Shown: positions 456 through 35,481 of the stretch, piece after piece
Position numbering within the stretch: position 1 is the stretch's first letter
Layout: every line of letters starts with the position of its first letter
Position numbers and translations under genes: made by a program
Notes under the pieces: model-generated
What the model was told of the DNA's origin: nothing
Database searches by the model: none
Seen by the model: only the letters and a program-made list of their open reading frames with translations
Origin: Candidatus Aegiribacteria sp.
Lineage (GTDB): Bacteria; Fermentibacterota; Fermentibacteria; Fermentibacterales; JCC-6
Assembly (NCBI GenBank): GCA_030594645.1
Contig: JAUVEU010000010.1
Span: 1-58,193 of the forward strand
DNA: 58,193 bases
Reading direction: 5' to 3'

Positions 456-1556
456 ATGATGAATCTTTTCATTCTGGTTTTTGCTGCATCAGCACCAATT
501 CACAATTACGCCCTCCCTGGAGAGATAGATCCTATGGATCCGCATTCCGGGGACTTCCTCGATCTGAACCTGAACGGTTATGTACAGTATGGACTTGAAG
601 CGTATTCCGAAGAGAACTACAGACTGGCCGCAAGGTATTTCCTTGCTTTCCTCACAAGGAATATCTCAGATACGAAAGTCATCTACAATCTTGCCTGCTG
701 CTATGCCCTGATGGAAGAACCGGAGCTTGCAGCACTATACCTCAGAAGAGCAGTGAATACCGGTTATAATGATTTCGGTTACATCCTTGAAGACCATGAT
801 TTTGATTGTGTACGTGATGATCCAGCTTTCGCGGAATTGATGGACCAGATTTCTCAAATACAGATCGGACCTCCGGAATTCACGGGTGACAGCATTCTCT
901 TCGATGCAAAAGCATCTTTTAGATGCCTGCTCCGATTTCCTGAAGAGTTCGATGACTCAGAACAGGCTTATCCCCTGCTTATCGGACTGCACGGGTTCGG
1001 TGATTCACCCGAAAGTTTCATCCGGCTCTGGGGATATTTCGAAACTCCTGATTTTATATATGCCTGCCCCTGCGCGCCATATCCAGTAACTGTCCATGGC
1101 ATATTCGGATATTCATGGTTCAGAATGGGAGCGGATTCCATTGAAACTCTTGAACTTGACATGATTTCTGCGGAATATGTAGCGACTGCCGTGAAAAACT
1201 TGAAAGAAAACTACAATATTTCGGATGTTTTCCTCTTCGGCTTTTCTCAGGGTTGTGGTCTTACATGGCTGACAGGGCTGAGATATCCTGACGAATTCTC
1301 GGGACTTATAGGGTTCGGAGGCAGATTCGATACGGGTTTCATCCCTGAATCAGTTATCGGTAATGTTTCAGGAATGAATGCGTTCGTGGCGAATGGAACA
1401 ATGGATGAATCGGTTGACTTCGCAGAGGGAGCGCATACAGTAGATATTCTGGAAAGCTATGGAATGGAAGTTGAATTCAAATCCTGGAATGGTCCTCACA
1501 GAGTTATCAGAAGCATTTTACTCGAAGCTCAGGAGTGGATGGAATCACTGAGATAG
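456..1556 (+). CDS. Secreted TPR plus alpha/beta hydrolase (carboxylesterase/phospholipase-like)
   Basis: The protein has 366 residues with a short N-terminal hydrophobic signal (MMNLFILVFAASA), so it is probably exported. Residues about 45-110 form a TPR-like helical region (YGLEAYSEENYRLAARYFLAF, then YNLACCYALMEEPELAALYL). From about 150 on there is a serine hydrolase domain with LIGLHGFGDSPESF as the oxyanion region and the nucleophile elbow GFSQG. An Asp (TMDESVD) and a His (NGPHRVI) follow in the expected order. This is the predicted-esterase/phospholipase family layout. The substrate is unknown. It directly follows the propeller gene on the plus strand. Confidence 0.8.
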   Translation: MMNLFILVFAASAPIHNYALPGEIDPMDPHSGDFLDLNLNGYVQYGLEAYSEENYRLAARYFLAFLTRNISDTKVIYNLACCYALMEEPELAALYLRRAVNTGYNDFGYILEDHDFDCVRDDPAFAELMDQISQIQIGPPEFTGDSILFDAKASFRCLLRFPEEFDDSEQAYPLLIGLHGFGDSPESFIRLWGYFETPDFIYACPCAPYPVTVHGIFGYSWFRMGADSIETLELDMISAEYVATAVKNLKENYNISDVFLFGFSQGCGLTWLTGLRYPDEFSGLIGFGGRFDTGFIPESVIGNVSGMNAFVANGTMDESVDFAEGAHTVDILESYGMEVEFKSWNGPHRVIRSILLEAQEWMESLR

Positions 1557-1595
1557 CTACATCAGACAGATAATGCACTAATATTATGAGTAATA

Positions 1596-1640
1596 GTAAT
1601 TAATATGTAGTAAATGTCAAAATACAAGGTGTGACCCTAC
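1596..1640 (-). repeat. AGGGTC-family dispersed repeat, copy A
   Basis: Read on the minus strand this is TAGGGTCacaCCTTGtatt followed by TTGACATTTactacatatt. It shares its core with copies at 2411-2457, 14555-14577, 14751-14773 and 46086-46249. The leading TAG is the stop codon of the lipoprotein gene that ends at 1637. The family resembles REP-like repeats mobilised by Y1/RAYT transposases; that link is inference because no transposase is present here. Confidence 0.75.
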
Positions 1641-2305
1641 TGGGATACCGTATAAGAAATCAACTCTTCAGAAACAGTAGTTATGATGTTATTGACACTT
1701 ATTGTGCAGACATCATTCAGTCTTCCAACATTCCGTGCAAAATCAGCAACCGTAGTAACAATACCAAATCCTGCCGGCATTGTAGTCTGCATTTCCATGC
1801 AATTCGCAAAACTTCCTGCGGGTACGGTAACATCCATATTCATGGAGAATATCTCAGCAGTTATAGATGGTGCCTGGCAGAATTGCCATGTTGATCCCTC
1901 AAGAAGTGGAAATGGAACAACAAACATGGAATCAGTATCATCAAGATGCTGATAGGCGTTGAACCCTTCACCGGTAACTCTGACATAGAGTGTATCCAGA
2001 AATTCAGTATATGTTGTCTGACTATACATAACTGTTGTATCAGATGTTGAAGTGGTCTGGATAAATACTTCAAAGTTTTCGGAATGAGTAGCAGTTCCTG
2101 TTATTTCTGTTACAGAAGCTCCGGTCTTCGTTCCGATTTCAACTCCACTTAGTTCTATAGTACCATTTCTCTGGTAATTCCACTGGTTTCCAACAGAAAG
2201 AGGATAGAATTCCTCGTCGTTTTCAACAGGTGCCGAAACATTATCACCACAACCAGTGATTAGAACCAGCAAAAGGGCAGCAAAAAGTATGATTGCATTT
2301 TTCAT
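1637..2305 (-). CDS. Lipoprotein of unknown function
   Basis: The protein has 222 residues with a type II signal peptide: a Lys start region, a hydrophobic stretch and the lipobox LITGC, giving a lipid-anchored Cys near residue 19. The mature part begins EEFYPLSVGNQWNYQRNG, a phrase common in secreted lipoproteins of the FCB group. The rest is predicted beta-rich with many Thr and Ser and no enzyme motif. The stop codon TAG is formed by the first bases of repeat copy A, and copy B lies upstream in the same orientation, so the gene is bracketed by direct repeats. Function unknown. Confidence 0.8.
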   Translation of the reverse strand: MKNAIILFAALLLVLITGCGDNVSAPVENDEEFYPLSVGNQWNYQRNGTIELSGVEIGTKTGASVTEITGTATHSENFEVFIQTTSTSDTTVMYSQTTYTEFLDTLYVRVTGEGFNAYQHLDDTDSMFVVPFPLLEGSTWQFCQAPSITAEIFSMNMDVTVPAGSFANCMEMQTTMPAGFGIVTTVADFARNVGRLNDVCTISVNNIITTVSEELISYTVSQ

Positions 2306-2410
2306 TATAATTCCTTCAATTCAAGCTTTCTTTTCCTGCATAATAATAAGTTATATGTATCTTCCAGGCAGATAGTATATTTCAGAGGTATTCCACTGAT
2401 ATTATTGTTG

Positions 2411-2457
2411 CTATTTTAATATATAGCAAATGTCAAGATTCAAGATCCGACCCCTTT
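2411..2457 (-). repeat. AGGGTC-family dispersed repeat, copy B
   Basis: On the minus strand it reads AGGGGTCggATCTTGaatc followed by TTGACATTTGctatatatt. It starts 2 bases after the TAA stop of the cupin gene. It is in the same orientation as copy A about 815 bp away, with a shared stretch of roughly 45 bp. Confidence 0.75.
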
Positions 2458-2459
2458 TG

Positions 2460-2795
2460 TTAAGTTGGGATGATGCAGAGGAAATCAAGGGGTTCATCTC
2501 CGGTATTCACGAAGTTATGCTCTTCATTCGGAATAACAAGAACTACAGATCCTTCAGACAGTTCTATCACTGAATTCCCCTGACGAACTTCTCCCCTGCC
2601 ATTAAGAGTATAAACCTCATGCTCCCATGAATGTGTGTGATAGGGTGTCTTCCCACCGGGGGCAATTGTAAAGCGGCGCATTATGAAATTGGGTGCTCCG
2701 TCATCCTCGCTGATAATGACACGAATTTTAACTCCCACCGCACCCTCGATCTCAACATCAACTGCTTCTATATCCGTATCTTTACGTACGATCAT
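2460..2795 (-). CDS. Small cupin-domain protein
   Basis: The protein has 111 residues and is a single cupin barrel. The metal-binding motif 1 is visible as YHTHSWEHEVYTLNGRGEV (His, His, Glu, with a further His in WEHE) and motif 2 as VLVIPNEEHNFVN. The length matches stand-alone cupin_2 proteins, which bind a metal and act as small-molecule isomerases, dioxygenases or sensors. The substrate cannot be told. It lies 48 bases downstream of the aminotransferase gene on the same strand and may share its transcript. Confidence 0.85.
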   Translation of the reverse strand: MIVRKDTDIEAVDVEIEGAVGVKIRVIISEDDGAPNFIMRRFTIAPGGKTPYHTHSWEHEVYTLNGRGEVRQGNSVIELSEGSVVLVIPNEEHNFVNTGDEPLDFLCIIPT

Positions 2796-2843
2796 GTGTA
2801 TCTCCTTCTGTGTTCACGCTTGCTGATATTAAATATCTCCATC

Positions 2844-4076
2844 TCACAAGAGATTTACCGGTGCTTCTGCCAGGGATCTGCAAAGATACTCGAATTCTGC
2901 ATCAGAGTTGTAGAGCTGGGCAGATAATCTGAGGAATCTGCCCTGTGGAATACTTGTGAAAGTAACGGGAATCTCGATCTGCTTTTCACGAAGAAGCCAG
3001 TTCTGTAGCGGATCAAGCCCCTCGGGAGGAAGTAAATTTGAGAGTGGCTTCCAGGGCAGCGAAACAGCTGCCATAGAGCCGATCATGCTCTCAGGACAGA
3101 ATGGTTCAATCCCCATTCGCTCGCAGATGAGTCTTTCCGCCCTGACGGCTTTCTCATGATTCTCATTCATTATCCCGGCCCATCCATCCGGATGAAGACT
3201 CTCCATAAAATCGATGGCGAATGGAACAGACATTCTTGGTGTCGGATCGATTGTGCCGTTCCAGAAAAACTCAATCTGGAAATCGGACATCTCAATATCG
3301 AATTCTGAAGCGATATGACTCATTACAGCTGGTCGGAAATTCTTCTGCTTGTCCGGTCTGACATACAGTAATGCCGCTGTTTTCGGAGCGCACATCCATT
3401 TATGACAGTTACCTGTGTAGTAAGCAGCGCCAAGTTCCTCAAGATTCAGAGGAATCATTCCCGGCCCGTGGGCGCCATCCACAAGAACATCTATTCCAAG
3501 CTGATCAAGTCTGCGGACAATTTCCTTCACGGGAAAAATCATTCCCGTAGGGCTGGAGATGTGGTCAATCAGAACAAGAATCGTTCGTGATGTTACTCTT
3601 GAGAGGATGGAATCGATAACCTGATCAGGGCTTGAAACGGGATTCTCTATTGGTACCTCAACATATTTCGCACCATACTTCGATGCATTCGTTCTAAGAA
3701 TATTAGCTGACGAGAAGTATTCCTGCCCTGTGGTTATCAGTTCATCTCCGGGTTTGATTGAAATATTGGAGAGAACTGTATTAATTCCTGTAGTCGCATT
3801 GGTAACAAGTACAATGGAACCGGGGGAAGCACCTGTGAAGTTCTCGAGTTTCTCAAGAATTCCAGTGATTCGCGGCATGTATTCTCTCTGGATGAAATCA
3901 ACAGGCTGCTTTTCCAGTCTGTCCAGAAGACATGCACGATATCTTTTCACTTCTGTTGGACAGGCTCCAAAGGATCCATGATTCAGAAATACCATATCCG
4001 GATCGAAATTCCAGAAGGACGCCAATTTACTTCTCGGTTTCCGGGGTTTCAACCGTTCCTCCTGATCGGAGATCAT
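2844..4076 (-). CDS. Class V aminotransferase-fold PLP enzyme (isopenicillin-N-epimerase-like)
   Basis: The protein has 410 residues. The N-terminal VFLNHGSFGACP is the hallmark of the isopenicillin-N-epimerase/cysteine-desulfurase-like branch of fold-type I PLP enzymes. The cofactor region is complete: LVTNATTGINTVL (phosphate binding), VLVDGAHGPG (Asp to the pyridine nitrogen) and YTGNCHKWMCAPK with the Schiff-base Lys after His. No signal peptide is seen, so it is cytoplasmic. Family members epimerise, desulfurate or lyse amino acids; the actual substrate is unknown. The gene lies 30 bases downstream of the YbhB-like gene. Confidence 0.85.
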   Translation of the reverse strand: MISDQEERLKPRKPRSKLASFWNFDPDMVFLNHGSFGACPTEVKRYRACLLDRLEKQPVDFIQREYMPRITGILEKLENFTGASPGSIVLVTNATTGINTVLSNISIKPGDELITTGQEYFSSANILRTNASKYGAKYVEVPIENPVSSPDQVIDSILSRVTSRTILVLIDHISSPTGMIFPVKEIVRRLDQLGIDVLVDGAHGPGMIPLNLEELGAAYYTGNCHKWMCAPKTAALLYVRPDKQKNFRPAVMSHIASEFDIEMSDFQIEFFWNGTIDPTPRMSVPFAIDFMESLHPDGWAGIMNENHEKAVRAERLICERMGIEPFCPESMIGSMAAVSLPWKPLSNLLPPEGLDPLQNWLLREKQIEIPVTFTSIPQGRFLRLSAQLYNSDAEFEYLCRSLAEAPVNLL

Positions 4077-4106
4077 TAAAGATTGGAGATACTATTTCCG
4101 CAAGGG

Positions 4107-4562
4107 TTAACACAGTCCGCTAAGTTTGGTCTGTTCCAGAACGTGCCCGTTCATTTCAGCCTCAACATCATCCCGGGAAGCCGCCGGTGGCAGATCAAGC
4201 TTGATATCCAGCGCATAAAGCGTAAAATTCATGACCTGATCCGAATTACTTTCATCCTGCCCATCCCATCCAAGGCTTCCAAAGCTGTTTACTCCCTGCA
4301 GTGCTCCTTCGAACACAACGTCGTTGTGAGATTGCTTTCCTTGAATAGTTCCTTTCCGAGGAGGGATATTGTACATCACCCAGTGACAGTATTCCTTATT
4401 GCTGCTCGGATCCAGGCACGATACTATGAGCGTAAGGCTGAGGGTTCCTTTCGGAGGTTCTGTCCAGCCGATTGGCGGGGATGAATTGCCTCCCGGTTTT
4501 GAGTACCAGAAAGGGATATAGTCGTTATTCTTGAAAGCACTGCTGCTGATGCGGAAACTCAT
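4107..4562 (-). CDS. YbhB/YbcL (Raf kinase inhibitor-like / PEBP) protein
   Basis: The protein has 151 residues from the chosen start and is a phosphatidylethanolamine-binding-protein fold. Family motifs include the N-terminal SFRISSSAFKNNDYIPFWYS, the ligand-site stretch LIVSCLDPSS, HWVMYNIP (the HW of PEBPs) and a C-terminal FTLYALD. The ATG at 4562 is preferred over the one at 4589 because AGAGGGG lies 5 bases upstream and because the predicted promoter would start transcription at about 4591. The biochemical role of bacterial members is poorly defined. Confidence 0.85.
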   Translation of the reverse strand: MSFRISSSAFKNNDYIPFWYSKPGGNSSPPIGWTEPPKGTLSLTLIVSCLDPSSNKEYCHWVMYNIPPRKGTIQGKQSHNDVVFEGALQGVNSFGSLGWDGQDESNSDQVMNFTLYALDIKLDLPPAASRDDVEAEMNGHVLEQTKLSGLC

Positions 4563-25326: not shown

Positions 25327-26871
25327 TCAGGATTTCACTGAATGCCCGTAGAGTTCAGTGATTTCTTCATGCATATCAATTGAATAGACCCTGAATTCAT
25401 CCACCCGTAGTTGATTATCTTCTCTAAACTCAATACCAAGCTGAGAAATGGACGCTATATGATCCATCCTCTTCCCATCATTTTCGTGAAGATAGGCTGC
25501 AATGTCAGGGTGTACTGAGATTACCAGGTTCTTGTGCTTCTTCTTCATCGATGCCCGTTCAATAAAACGTTCAAGCTCTGTCGCAGTTGACTCAATCGAC
25601 AACACTCTTCCGGTACCACCGCAATTCGAACAGGGTTCGGACAGTGACTGGAAGACACTGGGTCTGACTCTTTTTCTCGTCATTTCAACGAGTCCGAGAG
25701 AACTGACCTGGCATGTTTTCGTAGGGGAACGATCCCTCCCTAATTCACTTCGGAGGCTGTTCAGTACTCTATCCCTGTGTTCTGCTATATCCATATCAAT
25801 GAAATCAATAACGATAATTCCACCTAAATCTCGCAGACGAAGCTGCCGCGCGACTTCCCGAGAAGCTTCCATGTTGGTTTTGAGAATAGTGTTTTCCTGC
25901 TTTTTCCTGCCGACATACCTTTTTGTATTTACATCAATTGCCACGAGTGCTTCAGTGTGTTCAATAACCAGTGATCCTCCGCTTTTCAATGGAACTTCGC
26001 GGGCCATGATTCCAGATATTTCCTGCTCAACATTGAAATGATCAAAGATGGGGTTTTTTCCCCTGTAATATTTGACTTTACCCATCATACTGCTGTCAAA
26101 CGTCTTCAAGTATTTCCTGGCATCTCTGGCCACCTGTTTTGAATCAATTACGATAGAATTCGTATCCGAAGTGACAAGATCCCGCATGGTCATCGTGATC
26201 ACATCGTGCTCCTGATGTAGAAGTATCGGAGACTTGTTCTTAAGAGCTAGCTGGCCGACTTCACGCCATCGTTCAATTATCCTGCTCATATCCGACCGGA
26301 ACGCTTTTTCATCATGTGAAATTCCGGCTGTTCTTGCGATAATTCCATATCCGGGCATTATAACACTGGATACAATCTTTCTCAGACGCCCTCTTTCACG
26401 CCTGTCAGTGATTTTTCTGGATACTCCGGTGACAGTTTCACCTGGCATGCTTACTATGTATCTTCCCGCTATGGAAATCCTGGTGCTGACTCTGGCTCCC
26501 TTTGTTCCAATAGGTTCTTTGGTTACCTGAACAAGGATATCCTGCCCTTTTCTGAGAACTTTCTCAATAGAATCATTCACTTCTTTCGTAACCATTGGGG
26601 TACCGCTTGCCAGGGATCTGGCAAATTTCTCTGTGTCATTTGCGCTTGTTCTGATATCACTGACATGAAGGAAAGCGCTCCGTTCCATTCCTATATCGAC
26701 GAAAGCCGCCTGCATGCCGGGAAGGACAGCGTTAATCTTCCCAAGGTAAACATTGCCTACCTGCCTCCGTTCGCTGCCGCCTTCAACTATAAGCTCCATG
26801 AGTCTCTCATCCTCAAGAATTGCAATTCTTGTAACTTCGGGATGAGAGTTTATTATGAAATCAATTTTCAA
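25327..26871 (-). CDS. rng: Ribonuclease E/G family endoribonuclease
   Basis: The protein has 514 residues, close to RNase G length and without the long RNase E tail. The S1 domain is at the start (GNVYLGKINAVLPGMQAAFVDIGMERSAFLH). The catalytic DNase-I-like part includes ALVAIDVNTKRYVG and GIIVIDFIDM with the two metal Asp residues. The zinc link is PCSNCGGTGRV. It processes rRNA and mRNA 5-prime-monophosphate ends. The TTG start overlaps the stop of the radical SAM fusion gene by 11 bases. Confidence 0.95.
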   Translation of the reverse strand: MKIDFIINSHPEVTRIAILEDERLMELIVEGGSERRQVGNVYLGKINAVLPGMQAAFVDIGMERSAFLHVSDIRTSANDTEKFARSLASGTPMVTKEVNDSIEKVLRKGQDILVQVTKEPIGTKGARVSTRISIAGRYIVSMPGETVTGVSRKITDRRERGRLRKIVSSVIMPGYGIIARTAGISHDEKAFRSDMSRIIERWREVGQLALKNKSPILLHQEHDVITMTMRDLVTSDTNSIVIDSKQVARDARKYLKTFDSSMMGKVKYYRGKNPIFDHFNVEQEISGIMAREVPLKSGGSLVIEHTEALVAIDVNTKRYVGRKKQENTILKTNMEASREVARQLRLRDLGGIIVIDFIDMDIAEHRDRVLNSLRSELGRDRSPTKTCQVSSLGLVEMTRKRVRPSVFQSLSEPCSNCGGTGRVLSIESTATELERFIERASMKKKHKNLVISVHPDIAAYLHENDGKRMDHIASISQLGIEFREDNQLRVDEFRVYSIDMHEEITELYGHSVKS

Positions 26872-29281
26872 AAAAAATCTTCTCCAGATCTTTACTGTGA
26901 CTTCTCAATAATCTTCTGTCATCGAGAGTCACGTATACATTTGTTCGTCGAATTCGAGCAGGAGAATCAAGAATCCGGTTCAATAATAAGTCCGGACGTG
27001 ATTCCTTACTGCCTGTTACTGTTACCAGTTCAACGAAACATTTATCCTTTACTTCTGCGCTCAGAACAGGATCCATTTCCTGCAGAGAGGCAGCTATTCT
27101 ACCAGCGGCGTCGAAAGTCCATTCCGTATCTCCCGACTGTACAACATAAACCGCCGCAACCGTATTCGCATCCGGATCAGAATCACTGATTCGGATAAAC
27201 CATGTTTCTTCTATCCTGAATCCATCAGGGAGTACTCGTTCAAGAAGCTTGCGAGGTTCCTCAAGGGGTTCCTCTTCAAGCTGTATATCAACATACTCGG
27301 CAACACTCTCCATACCAAGAGGAAGAGCGGGTCCAAAATGCATTCTCGGTCTGCTAACATAACCATCTGAATAGGAAACAGGCAAATCAGCCCGTCTTAC
27401 AACTCTGCCCCACATCCTGACCAGATCAAGATGGGACGAGAACCGGGCAAGACCGGTTTTGGAGTAACGTATTCTCAATACAGCGTAAGGTCCCTTCGAT
27501 TGTTCAGCGATTCCAGGCTCAGCAGCACCAGGCTCGTCCAGCTCTGGTAAATCTCCATCGCATGCTCCGCATCCTGTGCAGCCCTCCTCCCTGCAATCAG
27601 GTGTGGTTGTCTCCTGAAAGTATTTCTCAAATTCAGAAACAAGATATTCACGTGAAACCCCTGTTGAAATGAAATCCCAGGGCAGTCGATCTCCAGGCTT
27701 TGAACCCTTGTGTACTCTTTCGAGAAGTTCGCTGTACTCATCAAGCAGTTCTTTCCAGATATCCCATCTGAAATTGTCTGTCCAGGCATCAAATCTGGCT
27801 CCTCTGAGTACGGCTTTCTCGAGCATATCTGCTGATTCTCCATCATCCCCGAGTGAAAGGAGCGCTTCCACAGAGGCGACTTTCGGGCTGTTCCAGCTTA
27901 TAGATACCTTCCTCCCGCATATTCTTCGAACAAGTCCGATTCTTCTCGATAGTTCTTCATCTGACATTTGAGAGGCCCACTGCAGCGGAGTATGCGCCTT
28001 GGGCACAAATGGAGACAGCGCTACTGTTACACTCTTACGCGGATTGCGCCCGTATTTCCTTGCTATCCTGCCGATTTCTATTGCGATCCTGCCAATGGCA
28101 CTGACATCTTCCAGGGTTTCCTCTGGAAGACCAATCATGAAGTAGAGCTTTATCCCTTTAGCTCCTATTCTGAAAACCGTATCGGCAGCTTTCAGAATAA
28201 CTTCATCAGCAAGTGGTTTGTTCATTCTTCTTCTGAGTAATTCACTGCCGGCCTCAGGAGCCATTGTTATTCTTCCGGTGATATCAGAACAATCCTCAAG
28301 TCGGCTGAGGGTATCCGGCCTTAGAGACGGTCTGCCAGCTGAAGAATGGTGTTTCGTGCAAATCGTATCCATTCCCGCAAGCAGTTCAGGAAGTCTTGAA
28401 TAATCAGAGAATGACAATGTAAGCAGCCCTGCCTTTTCCCATCCGGTACACTTTAAAATCGAATCCATTAATTCAAGAATCTCCGTAACAGGCCTTTCCC
28501 TCACCGGCCTGTTCAGCTGAGAGGCCTGGCAGAATCTGCATCCCCTGGTACAGCCTCTGGCTATTTCTACAACCGCGCGGTCCTGAGATACTCGAGAAAG
28601 CGGAACAAGCTGCTTTACAGGAGCCCATTCCCTGCGAAGATTGCTGACTCTCTGCAGTTCAACAGGCTTTTTCCCGATACTCGGAATGAACATACCCGGA
28701 ATGGAACCGGCCTGTTCAAGACGGAAGGTACGTGATCCGCTGCCTGAAAGGATCTCGAAGAGCTCGACTGCTTTCTCTTCGATCTCTCCCAGAAAAACAG
28801 CATCGGCAAAAGGCGCCAGTGGCAGAGGGTTGGCTATGCCTCCCCCGCCAAGGAGAATGATCGGTGAATTCTCACTCCTTTCACTGCTTCTTAGAGAAAG
28901 ACCCATTTTCCTGATCAGATGAAGAACGTTTGTGTAAAGCGCTTCAGAAGGAATGCCAAAACCTACTACTCTGCTATTCCGAACCGGATCCCCGTTTTCA
29001 AGATCGGTCCAGTCAAGCCCTTCTCTGTCCAGAAGCTCATCCATATCAGGAGCGGGACTGAATGCGCGCCTTACATCGAACTTCCCGCTTCCGACAAGCA
29101 TATGGCGAAGTATGACAAGACCGAAATTCGACATCCCAAGTTCGTAAATATCAGGATAGACGAGCGTCACCCTTGGCTTATCCTTCAGGGAACAGTCAAG
29201 GTTCCATTCCCCACCTGTATATTGTTGAGGTCTTCTGATTTCAGGAAGGAATTTTTCGTAGGGATGAGAGTATGAACTCAA
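26861..29281 (-). CDS. Radical SAM protein (TIGR03960-like) fused to a DUF2344 (TIGR03936-like) domain
   Basis: The protein has 806 residues. The N-terminal part (about 1-590) has the start YEKFLPEIRRPQQYTGGEWN and a radical SAM motif CTRGCRFC (Cys244, Cys248, Cys251) after a B12-binding-like Rossmann region. A cysteine-rich linker, CREEGCTGCGACDGD, follows at about 590. The C-terminal 200 residues match DUF2344 (RIRYSKTGLARFSSHLDLVRMWGRVVRRADLPVSYSDG). In many bacteria the two parts are one gene or adjacent genes just upstream of rng and rplU, exactly as here. The reaction is not established; the context suggests RNA or ribosome modification. Confidence 0.92.
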   Translation of the reverse strand: MSSYSHPYEKFLPEIRRPQQYTGGEWNLDCSLKDKPRVTLVYPDIYELGMSNFGLVILRHMLVGSGKFDVRRAFSPAPDMDELLDREGLDWTDLENGDPVRNSRVVGFGIPSEALYTNVLHLIRKMGLSLRSSERSENSPIILLGGGGIANPLPLAPFADAVFLGEIEEKAVELFEILSGSGSRTFRLEQAGSIPGMFIPSIGKKPVELQRVSNLRREWAPVKQLVPLSRVSQDRAVVEIARGCTRGCRFCQASQLNRPVRERPVTEILELMDSILKCTGWEKAGLLTLSFSDYSRLPELLAGMDTICTKHHSSAGRPSLRPDTLSRLEDCSDITGRITMAPEAGSELLRRRMNKPLADEVILKAADTVFRIGAKGIKLYFMIGLPEETLEDVSAIGRIAIEIGRIARKYGRNPRKSVTVALSPFVPKAHTPLQWASQMSDEELSRRIGLVRRICGRKVSISWNSPKVASVEALLSLGDDGESADMLEKAVLRGARFDAWTDNFRWDIWKELLDEYSELLERVHKGSKPGDRLPWDFISTGVSREYLVSEFEKYFQETTTPDCREEGCTGCGACDGDLPELDEPGAAEPGIAEQSKGPYAVLRIRYSKTGLARFSSHLDLVRMWGRVVRRADLPVSYSDGYVSRPRMHFGPALPLGMESVAEYVDIQLEEEPLEEPRKLLERVLPDGFRIEETWFIRISDSDPDANTVAAVYVVQSGDTEWTFDAAGRIAASLQEMDPVLSAEVKDKCFVELVTVTGSKESRPDLLLNRILDSPARIRRTNVYVTLDDRRLLRSHSKDLEKIFFEN

Positions 29282-29793
29282 GCCTGGTCCAGCAGATTAA
29301 TGTTCTGAGAAACAGGGTTCGCAAGCAAACCGTGATCCCGATACGAAGTAATGGTCAATGCAAGTGTTCTTTCCCTGGCTTCGGCCATGGAGGTACCTGA
29401 TGAATATCCGAGCCGCCAGAGAACTGAGTACATAACTTTCTCAATTTCATATTTATTGCGCCTGAGGATATCAGTCCAGTTCTCGGAGATGCTGTCTACC
29501 TTGTCGGTAACAAGCACTTCAGCCCAGACAAGTTCTTCATCCCCGGAAAGGAGAATACCGCTTCCGCCCGAAAAGCTCCAGGACTGTTTATTGGGGTTCA
29601 CGATATCGTGGAAATGTAACACGATTTCTTCAACAGTTCTCTTTCCATCAAGGGGTCTGATGAACCGCCAGTAATCGTATCTTTCCAGCCTGCCCGGACA
29701 TGTGTCAGGATTGATCCGCTTTAATGTCGACAGAGCAGTCATAGCAGCGGGATCAGGCGCCTTCAGCCTGACTTCTATCGAAACCTCTGTCAT
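29278..29793 (-). CDS. purS: PurS-like protein made of two fused PurS-type halves (FGAM synthase accessory subunit)
   Basis: The protein has 171 residues; ordinary PurS has about 80. Residues 1-77 follow the PurS plan: a first strand SIEVRLKAPDP, a helix MTALSTLKRI, a second strand RLERYDYWRFI and a helix ending HDIVNPNKQSWSF. Residues about 87-171 repeat it: AEVLVTDKVDS, EKVMYSVLWRLGY, RTLALTITS and HGLLANPVSQNINLL. Both halves end with an NP-x-x-Q element where PurS has LLaNPviE. PurS dimers bridge PurL and PurQ in the three-subunit FGAM synthase, and the PurL here is the short type. The gene overlaps purQ and the radical SAM gene by 4 bases each. Assignment is by pattern and position, so it is moderately sure. 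Confidence 0.6.
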   Translation of the reverse strand: MTEVSIEVRLKAPDPAAMTALSTLKRINPDTCPGRLERYDYWRFIRPLDGKRTVEEIVLHFHDIVNPNKQSWSFSGGSGILLSGDEELVWAEVLVTDKVDSISENWTDILRRNKYEIEKVMYSVLWRLGYSSGTSMAEARERTLALTITSYRDHGLLANPVSQNINLLDQA

Positions 29794-32996: not shown

Positions 32997-34151
32997 TCAT
33001 TTGCCAATTGATGAGATGAACGTTTTCTGCTCAAGTCTGCTTAATACACCCTCAAACGTATCACTGTTCCCTGATTCCACAATAAGATAACGAATTCTGA
33101 CGTTACCCAGGCTGTCTCCGGTATCATTCTCCAGTTTTGGAAGGTCATCAAGCAGACGCTGCATAACATTTTCCATGCCCTCAACACCTGTACCCGGCAG
33201 TAGAATGATAATTTTATCAACACCGGTTCTCAATCCGGCATCAATGTTCCGCATAGTCGCTTTGAGATGATTGGCGGCAATGGACATGAACTCTCTTGCA
33301 CGAAACCTGTCATCAATAGCGCCACGTTCAATTATAAGTTCAACTATAGCAAGAGGGCTGTCAAATCTTCTGACTCTCTCAAGCTCCTGAGTAAGGATTG
33401 GTTCGAATCGTCCCTTACCCGGAAGACCTGTGTCAGGATCCATATCGGCGGCGGATTCAAATCTCCCAAGAAGTCGAATACCCTCAAATGCAGCCGCTCC
33501 AACAGCGGCAATCGCAACCAGTCTTTCCCTTGGAAGTGTTGATTCTATCGGTATATCAACCAGGCAAATCACTCCGTACAGCACACCCTGGCACACCATA
33601 GGCGCAGCGAGATCGGGCAGGAAGTTCGGAATCGCGGTTCTCTCAAGCCGCTTCTTAGTAAGTTCACTTTCTTTCTCAAGATTCTTCTTTTCAAAAACCA
33701 ACCCGGTTTCCGCTGTAAATCCCACATGTCCATCACCGACATTTACTACTAGAGGTTGTTTGAGAATTTCTCCGAGTCCTTCGGTATGCACAAGTCCAAG
33801 TTTACCTCCCCGGACATCAGCCAGGAATACCGCAATACGATCACATCCGGTAAGTCTGTGCATGGCCCTGGCAAGGAGTTTAGCAAGTTCATCCGGAGTT
33901 CTCGCCGCGAGCACCTGTTTTACCAGTTCAGGAAACAGCACTGCAATAGCACGGTGTTTCTTAATCTCAAGATCATATCTGGTCTGCCTTGCGTCAGCTT
34001 CCTGCTTGTCATAACGAAGAGCTGTAATATCATTCTTGAGCGAACTGACTCGTTCCTCATTATTGAATGCTATTTTCCTGGTTTTTGTAATCATAATCAA
34101 CCACACCAGCAATGCTCCCGCGATAATCCCCCCAAGTATTTCGATCAGCAT
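32997..34151 (-). CDS. Membrane-anchored GAF protein with a degenerate GGDEF domain
   Basis: The protein has 384 residues: one N-terminal membrane segment (IIAGALLVWLIMIT), a coiled-coil stretch, a GAF-like domain (about 75-225, LVKQVLAARTPDELAKLLARAMHRLTGCDRIAVFLAD) and a GGDEF-like domain (DPDTGLPGKGRFEPILTQELERVRRF). The signature loop that should read R-x-GG-D/E-E-F reads RTGVDKIIILLP, so the Gly and Glu needed for c-di-GMP synthesis are lost. It is likely a sensor or scaffold rather than an active cyclase. It sits between purB and purL, which is odd for a signalling protein. Confidence 0.78.
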   Translation of the reverse strand: MLIEILGGIIAGALLVWLIMITKTRKIAFNNEERVSSLKNDITALRYDKQEADARQTRYDLEIKKHRAIAVLFPELVKQVLAARTPDELAKLLARAMHRLTGCDRIAVFLADVRGGKLGLVHTEGLGEILKQPLVVNVGDGHVGFTAETGLVFEKKNLEKESELTKKRLERTAIPNFLPDLAAPMVCQGVLYGVICLVDIPIESTLPRERLVAIAAVGAAAFEGIRLLGRFESAADMDPDTGLPGKGRFEPILTQELERVRRFDSPLAIVELIIERGAIDDRFRAREFMSIAANHLKATMRNIDAGLRTGVDKIIILLPGTGVEGMENVMQRLLDDLPKLENDTGDSLGNVRIRYLIVESGNSDTFEGVLSRLEQKTFISSIGK

Positions 34152-34173: not shown

Positions 34174-35481
34174 TCATTCATCTGCTGGTAAAAGACCAAG
34201 CCTTCCCAGAGTATTATCCTCATTTCGAAGATGATACTCAAGGGCACATCGCTCCTCGATCTCATTACCGGACAAAATACTCTTGAACTCCTTATCCTGT
34301 CTTACCATATCGATAAACCCTATCCCCTGTTCCATAGCCTCCATGGCAACACGCTGAACCATCTTATAGCCACTTTCTCTTGAAAAACCTTTATCAATCA
34401 GAGCGAGCAGAATTGTCTGAGAGTGGAATCTGTCCCCGGCCTTTTCAATATTGCTCCTGACGGCATCTGGAAACACCCTCAGATTTGATGTAAGCTTCAC
34501 TGCCCTGGAAAGCGCATATAGAGCTATCCCACAGGAATCCGGAAAGATGAAGCGTTCAGCGGATGAATGGCTTATATCTCTTTCATGCCATAGAACAGTA
34601 TTCTCAAGGGATGGAATCAGATAGCCCCTGAGCAGGCGTGCAAGCCCGCAGAGTCTCTCACTGATAATTGGATTCCGTTTATGGGGCATGGCACTGGAAC
34701 CTTTCTGTCCTTTCCCGAAGGACTCCTCAACTTCACCGACTTCGGTTCGCTGCAGATGCCGTATTTCCGTTCCGAATCTCTCAAGGAGACTTCCTATGGA
34801 GGCAAGCGCATATACAAAATCCGCGTGCCTGTCTCTTGCAACAACCTGGGTCGAAACAGTTTCGATCCCGATTCCCAGTCTTCTGCAAACGAATTCCTCC
34901 ACGGATGGGTCCAGATGTGCGTAAGTTCCTACTGCTCCGGACAATTTCCCCACACATGCTGATTCAAGACCATTTATTAATCGGTCTTTACACCTCAGAT
35001 ATTCGCTGTAGTATCCGGCAAACTTCAAACCCATCGTTGTTGGTTCCGCATGCATTCCGTGACTTCTGCCTATACAGAGAATCCCTCTGGTTCTGCTTAC
35101 CAGACCGGCAAGAGCACTGCCGAAACTGTCAAGCTCATCCATAATCATCTTCCCTGCATCCTTCAGCTGGGTTGCAAGGCATGTGTCGAGAATGTCGCTG
35201 GAAGTCATACCGTAATGAATATGTCTTGCTTCTGAACCAAGACTCTCGGATACACTTGTAAGGAAAGCAATTACATCATGTTTTACAACTTCCTCTATTT
35301 CTTCGACTCTTTTTACATCGAAAGAGGCATTATCTCTGATATTCTTCAAATCCGAAGCTGGAACAAACCCGGCTTCCGCCCTTGCCTCCACAGCAAGTAT
35401 CTCTATTCTCAACCATCTTGCATATCTGGATTCAGCAGTCCATATCTCCTCCATCTCGGGGATTACATATCTGTCAATCAT
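34174..35481 (-). CDS. purB: Adenylosuccinate lyase
   Basis: The protein has 435 residues, the usual length. It shows IHYGMTSSDILDTCLATQL, RSHGMHAEPTTMGLKFAGYYSE, and the fumarase-superfamily signature GSSAMPHKRNPI. It cleaves SAICAR and adenylosuccinate to release fumarate in purine and AMP synthesis. The start ATG has GGAGG upstream. It is preceded by the SH3 lipoprotein gene and followed 22 bases later by the GAF/GGDEF gene. Confidence 0.97.
   Translation of the reverse strand: MIDRYVIPEMEEIWTAESRYARWLRIEILAVEARAEAGFVPASDLKNIRDNASFDVKRVEEIEEVVKHDVIAFLTSVSESLGSEARHIHYGMTSSDILDTCLATQLKDAGKMIMDELDSFGSALAGLVSRTRGILCIGRSHGMHAEPTTMGLKFAGYYSEYLRCKDRLINGLESACVGKLSGAVGTYAHLDPSVEEFVCRRLGIGIETVSTQVVARDRHADFVYALASIGSLLERFGTEIRHLQRTEVGEVEESFGKGQKGSSAMPHKRNPIISERLCGLARLLRGYLIPSLENTVLWHERDISHSSAERFIFPDSCGIALYALSRAVKLTSNLRVFPDAVRSNIEKAGDRFHSQTILLALIDKGFSRESGYKMVQRVAMEAMEQGIGFIDMVRQDKEFKSILSGNEIEERCALEYHLRNEDNTLGRLGLLPADE

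Follow-up and report, generated by a model that had tools for sequence, protein, structure and literature searches.

The window analysed here is the complete 58,193-nucleotide contig JAUVEU010000010.1 of Candidatus Aegiribacteria sp. (phylum Fermentibacterota; assembly GCA_030594645.1). Within it, we turned our attention to an open reading frame at positions 29278–29793 that lies directly beside purQ and close to purL and purB (Table 1). Its 171-residue product very probably comprises two PurS domains in one chain and would replace the PurS homodimer in formylglycinamide ribonucleotide (FGAR) amidotransferase (FGAR-AT), working together with the adjacent PurL and PurQ.

Gene Order and Predicted Fold

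The overlap of the tandem PurS gene with purQ consists of the four bases ATGA, and a GGGAGGA stretch is located just 5' of the tandem PurS start codon. Upstream, the window PurL carries the FGAR-AT linker, AIRS, and AIRS_C domains and scores 630.5 against the short-PurL model TIGR01736 (cut-off 525.75), in agreement with the first-pass annotation of this DNA, which had called it the short form from sequence alone. PurQ reaches 202.6 against TIGR01737 (cut-off 177.8), and for both proteins the best-scoring models are those of the short, three-protein enzyme. The single match to the FGAR-AT linker in the own genome (E ≤ 1) is the window PurL; purC is present in this genome as well. The gene between purB and purL, which stays beside purL in several loci of the phylum, encodes a product with GVDKI where the GGDEF motif would be expected, as placed by eye, and may be a degenerate sensor.

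Table 1. Coordinates of the tandem PurS gene, its parts, and the neighboring genes within the window.
Feature	Position	Strand	Remarks
Fused (tandem) PurS gene	29278..29793	(-)	171 aa; stop codon included; ATG start; from open reading frame, AlphaFold2 model, and structure/profile matches
First PurS-like half, residues 1-76	29566..29793	(-)	predicted beta-alpha-beta-alpha-beta; profile match to PurS
Inter-half loop, residues 77-86	29536..29565	(-)	residues 77-84 with pLDDT <50; length varies among relatives
Second PurS-like half, residues 87-171	29281..29535	(-)	
VNPNKQ, residues 65-70	29584..29601	(-)	aligned to LLANPVIE-like PurS end
ANPVSQ, residues 158-163	29305..29322	(-)	aligned to LLANPVIE-like PurS end
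purQ, glutaminase subunit, 279 aa	29790..30629	(-)	TIGR01737 above cut-off; overlaps tandem PurS gene
purL, short form, 763 aa	30626..32917	(-)	TIGR01736 above cut-off; overlaps purQ
purB, adenylosuccinate lyase	34174..35481	(-)	TIGR00928 above cut-off; upstream, same gene run
Gene with weak GGDEF matches	32997..34151	(-)	between purB and purL; below curated cut-offs
Radical-SAM-like gene (named by eye)	26861..29281	(-)	downstream, overlaps tandem PurS gene

The open reading frame is not a chance one, because the gene recurs in 41 of the 42 genomes of the phylum, the own genome included, and because the differences to four close relatives are biased toward third codon positions, which account for half or more of them in every case (positions 1, 2, 3: [8,3,26], [13,10,23], [15,12,34], and [15,16,48]). 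All 24 phylum genomes with a completeness of 90% or more and a contamination of 5% or less carry the gene.

AlphaFold2 models the protein with a mean predicted local distance difference test score (pLDDT) of 86.6 and a predicted template modeling score (pTM) of 0.83. The first half follows the order E3-10, H15-27, E35-45, H51-60, E70-75 (E, strand; H, helix), and the second half, after the loop, repeats it with E88-97, H101-112, E119-131, H136-147, E163-168. Thus the double-size protein with a PurS-like succession of strands and helices in each half, which had been proposed from the letters alone, is recovered in the model, with a strand closing both halves; both the fold and the way in which the halves lie relative to each other are predictions. 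PurS chains align to the second half of the window model and, in six of seven cases, to the first half of the P0101 model. Taken as a whole, the window model superposes on that domain of large PurL which resembles a PurS dimer.

The same earlier proposal had pointed to an Asn-Pro element in each half, and both are in place. Their asparagines N66 and N159 are invariant in two alignments that include the window protein, one of 33 and one of 65 members; P160 is conserved to at least 90% in the former and invariant in the latter, while P67 reaches at least 90% among the 33 members and is not among the conserved positions listed for the 65. In the profile comparison, the elements of both halves line up with the LLANPVIE-like PurS end, which, together with the retained asparagines, fits a role in the place of PurS.

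Relation to PurS and Alternative Readings

On the level of single sequences, the relation to PurS is not visible: The window protein has no Pfam family at E ≤ 10, PF02700 (PurS) included, a set of 37 close relatives with the window protein among them gives no PurS match at E ≤ 1, and single-sequence searches of Pfam, NCBIfam, and the PDB sequences yielded nothing useful. Spectrin matches among the PDB sequences (E 0.11 and 1) were taken as chance. We therefore rely on profile–profile comparison by hhalign with a PurS profile of 13 proteins, the probabilities being given without a shuffled control. A profile built from close relatives gives weak values (half 1 against PurS 10.2, half 2 against PurS 47.8, half against half 0.6). 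The match became clear only once more distant relatives were included: With the 33-member profile, which joins 23 proteins from genomes outside the phylum to ten close relatives, half 1 reaches 82.6, half 2 95.2, and the comparison of the two halves 95.8; with the 65-member profile, compiled from a protein search and including the window protein, the values are 94.8, 85.3, and 94.3. The suggestion that each half resembles PurS and that the chain contains an internal repeat is thereby borne out with the wide profiles.

Individual family members connect to PurS more directly. At E ≤ 0.1, PF02700 picks up 11 of the 33 members, the best at 1.7e-7. Of ten members scanned one by one, five of which had been chosen for an existing PF02700 listing, six scored over the cut-off, two below it, and two gave no match; all but one of the eight matching members contain two PF02700 stretches (E ≤ 10). 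Database names mirror this only in part: Among 29 named rows of the 120 relatives listed, 18 read hypothetical protein and 11 FGAM synthase PurS component (JGI), and not one of these names reflects the two-copy nature, whereas in another set of named relatives all are called hypothetical protein. Since it holds two halves in one chain, we regard the tandem protein as a PurS variant and not as a standard PurS.

A separate standard purS gene, whose presence would have spoken against this role, was not found in the draft genome of the window, where PF02700 has no match at E ≤ 10 (12 of 14 control genomes match). Across the 42 phylum genomes none exceeds the cut-off, and weak matches appear in eight (E 0.147–0.86). 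For the 24 genomes outside the phylum that carry a family member, we redid the search on these genomes alone, because our census of PurS, in which 227 of 385 genomes match at E ≤ 0.01, misses some weak matches: Its absences are less sensitive, as exemplified by G107, which is missing at that threshold yet gives E 2.0e-4 on re-search. Outside the tandem gene, none of the 24 has a match over the cut-off, and four further matches are weak and below it (E 0.14–0.89).

Could the protein instead derive from a large, single-chain FGAR-AT whose N-terminal domain became a separate gene and would work in the same place? Its best structural matches are exactly this domain; yet any two-half PurS protein would be expected to score higher against the whole domain than against a single PurS chain. 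The corresponding family FGAR-AT_N (PF18076) gives no match in the own genome at E ≤ 1 and is never over the cut-off in the 42 phylum genomes (weak matches in 11, E 0.0175–0.66), a result to be read with the narrowness of this model, which exceeds its cut-off in just one of 99 genomes and two of 14 controls. Moreover, the family profiles give no match to the frames at L062, the one large PurL locus compared, both halves match PurS in the wide-profile comparison, and the window PurL and PurQ reach their best scores with the models of the short, three-protein enzyme, all of which makes a split-off domain improbable. Still more remote is a companion or regulator of the enzyme that has another ferredoxin-like fold, for example of the ACT type, and is PurS-like in fold only. 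Such folds are common, Foldseek matches SerB2, which has ACT domains, at E 0.1, and neither the window protein nor its close relatives show a single-sequence match to PurS.

Accepting two PurS domains in one chain, we infer the binding of tandem PurS to PurL and PurQ, its stoichiometry, and its role by placing it in the known three-protein enzyme, in which PurQ releases ammonia from glutamine and PurL uses this ammonia and ATP to convert FGAR into formylglycinamidine ribonucleotide (FGAM). That enzyme is described with PurL, PurQ, and PurS in a ratio of 1:1:2 (PMC10912719, citing Hoskins 2004). The two halves of the tandem chain would occupy the positions of the two PurS chains, and tandem PurS, entering as a single subunit at the place of the PurS pair, would likely give a 1:1:1 complex.

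Distribution and a Second Group of Tandem PurS Proteins

Named relatives of the window protein belong to metagenome-assembled genomes of Candidatus Aegiribacteria or Fermentibacteria. Outside the phylum, the close-relative profile matches 24 of 343 genomes at E ≤ 0.011; the matches in G087 and G240 (E 0.035 and 0.057) were left out of this count, and G240 carries a tandem PurS of the purL-linked kind described below. One outside relative among those listed is named Candidatus Latescibacterota, and the relatives of the G167 protein include Candidatus Eremiobacteraeota and Elarobacter (best 120 of 531).

Within the phylum, all 40 loci besides the window have purQ upstream and in the same orientation, and the match ends of the two genes are 3–46 bases apart in 39 of them and 646 in one; the 646-base gap was noted for L001 and L010. 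The purL gene is found at 37 and the radical-SAM-like gene at 38 of the 40 loci, with the misses at the ends of the stretches covered. In the 24 genomes outside the phylum, purQ is upstream at 20 of 25 loci. Two loci (L104 and L105) are cut by a contig end, and three (L083, L084, and L100) hold family members without any of the genes sought (purQ, purL) nearby; the neighbors at L083, judged by eye, look like genes for a GNAT protein, for a protein resembling potassium channels, and for riboflavin. At L051 (G035, 3069-4538), purQ and tandem PurS share one stop-free open frame. It may represent a genuine fusion, but an error in the sequence is equally likely, since both purL and the radical-SAM-like gene are split over several frames at this locus.

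The PurS census led to a second group. We re-searched 42 genomes of our choice: 41 of the 227 census-positive ones, made up of 34 of the 36 double-match genomes, six picked with one weak match, and one control, plus G107. Two PurS matches fall into one open frame of 152–332 residues in 19 of the 42; frames of 962–1251 residues account for 20 more, 18 with two PurS matches and two with one; and the remaining three are a purB-PurS frame, G107, and the control. The purB-PurS frame (L118 in G111, 1495-3084) combines a purB match with a C-terminal single PurS match. All 13 of the 20 long frames that were read run on into a PurL match, so that the module forms the N-terminus of the PurL frame (L109, L110, L120, L123-L127, L129, L132, and L134-L136). 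Of the 19 short frames, 15 were read as free-standing tandem PurS (L108, L111-L117, L119, L121, L122, L128, L130, L131, and L133), nine with a purL match within the approximately 3 kb examined. Profile comparison of free with PurL-fused tandems gives 2e-31 for the first and 5.9e-31 for the second halves, which shows, at the level of sequence profiles, that both are the same module.

Are these tandems and the window family products of one duplication? In the profile comparison, the halves of the window family match each other at 2.4e-9 and PurS at 1.7e-7 and 4.2e-8, and the family matches the purL-linked group at 5e-3 to 2e-5; its nearest profiles are thus its own and those of PurS. A tree of the halves places those of the window family together (support 99/94), and in the purL-linked group it unites first halves with first halves (99/85) and second with second (99/90). 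It was built from 79 columns and 101 rows with long branches, and samples 21 hand-picked window-family tandems (from a pool of up to 89 proteins: 33 and 65 in the two wide alignments, nine in both), 13 of the 15 free and ten of the 13 PurL-fused purL-linked tandems, and 13 PurS proteins. Forcing all first halves into one clade costs 13.9 log-likelihood units at an approximately unbiased p-value (p-AU) of 0.269. The best tree thus favors an origin of the window family by a duplication of its own, separate from the purL-linked tandems, with a shared duplication not rejected. We consider it rather probable that FGAR amidotransferase has a third stable architecture, in which a free-standing fused PurS dimer serves instead of PurS in many bacterial lineages that look devoid of PurS, and that such dimers were invented at least twice: once linked to purQ, as in the window, and once linked to purL, where the dimer also became the N-terminus of mid-size PurL.

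Comparison with Known Systems

If this reading holds, tandem PurS fills a gap in purine synthesis in genomes annotated without PurS. To its likeness to PurS (PF02700, TIGR00302), the small subunit of the three-protein FGAR amidotransferase, contribute the predicted fold of each half, the Asn-Pro element near the C-terminal end, and the location of the gene next to purQ and purL. PurS, however, is a single domain of approximately 80 residues that acts as a homodimer, whereas the window protein holds two copies in a chain of approximately 170 residues, its halves have diverged from each other (VNPNK versus GLLANPxxQ), and its close relatives have diverged too far to be recognized by the models of Pfam and NCBIfam. 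Because the copies in a homodimer are identical whereas the tandem halves have diverged, a natural single-chain PurS dimer would make the two copies distinguishable and changeable singly.

With the N-terminal domain of large FGAR-AT (PF18076; 1t3t and relatives), the window protein shares the superposition over the whole chain and the predicted pseudo-dimer in one chain; it differs in being free-standing, in having PurL and PurQ as separate proteins, and in that no sequence match was found. In the literature, this domain is likened to PurS or a PurS dimer (PMC3815217, PMC10927867), and PMC10912719 gives it a probable part in the coupling of the two active sites. A synthetic double PurS sequence was built for an alignment in PMC3815217, and the window protein would be its natural counterpart.

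In our search of an open-access library, a fused PurS that stands free did not turn up in any paper, and the passages of PMC3261824 that deal with PurS do not mention one; they do report some archaeal PurL proteins with approximately 200 extra N-terminal residues, for which the role of PurS was suspected. The N-terminus of mid-size PurL (mdPurL, PMC3261824) and the free-standing tandems of L108-L133 resemble the window protein in that they hold two PurS halves per chain and in that some are free as well. Their halves, however, cluster among themselves and apart from the window family, within the limits of the tree given above, and where a purL was seen next to them, its score against the window PurL is much lower. 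With separate PurS subunits on one side and larger PurL enzymes with a built-in PurS pair on the other, tandem PurS would be the arrangement to expect in between, and in the purL-linked group one module occurs both free and fused to PurL.
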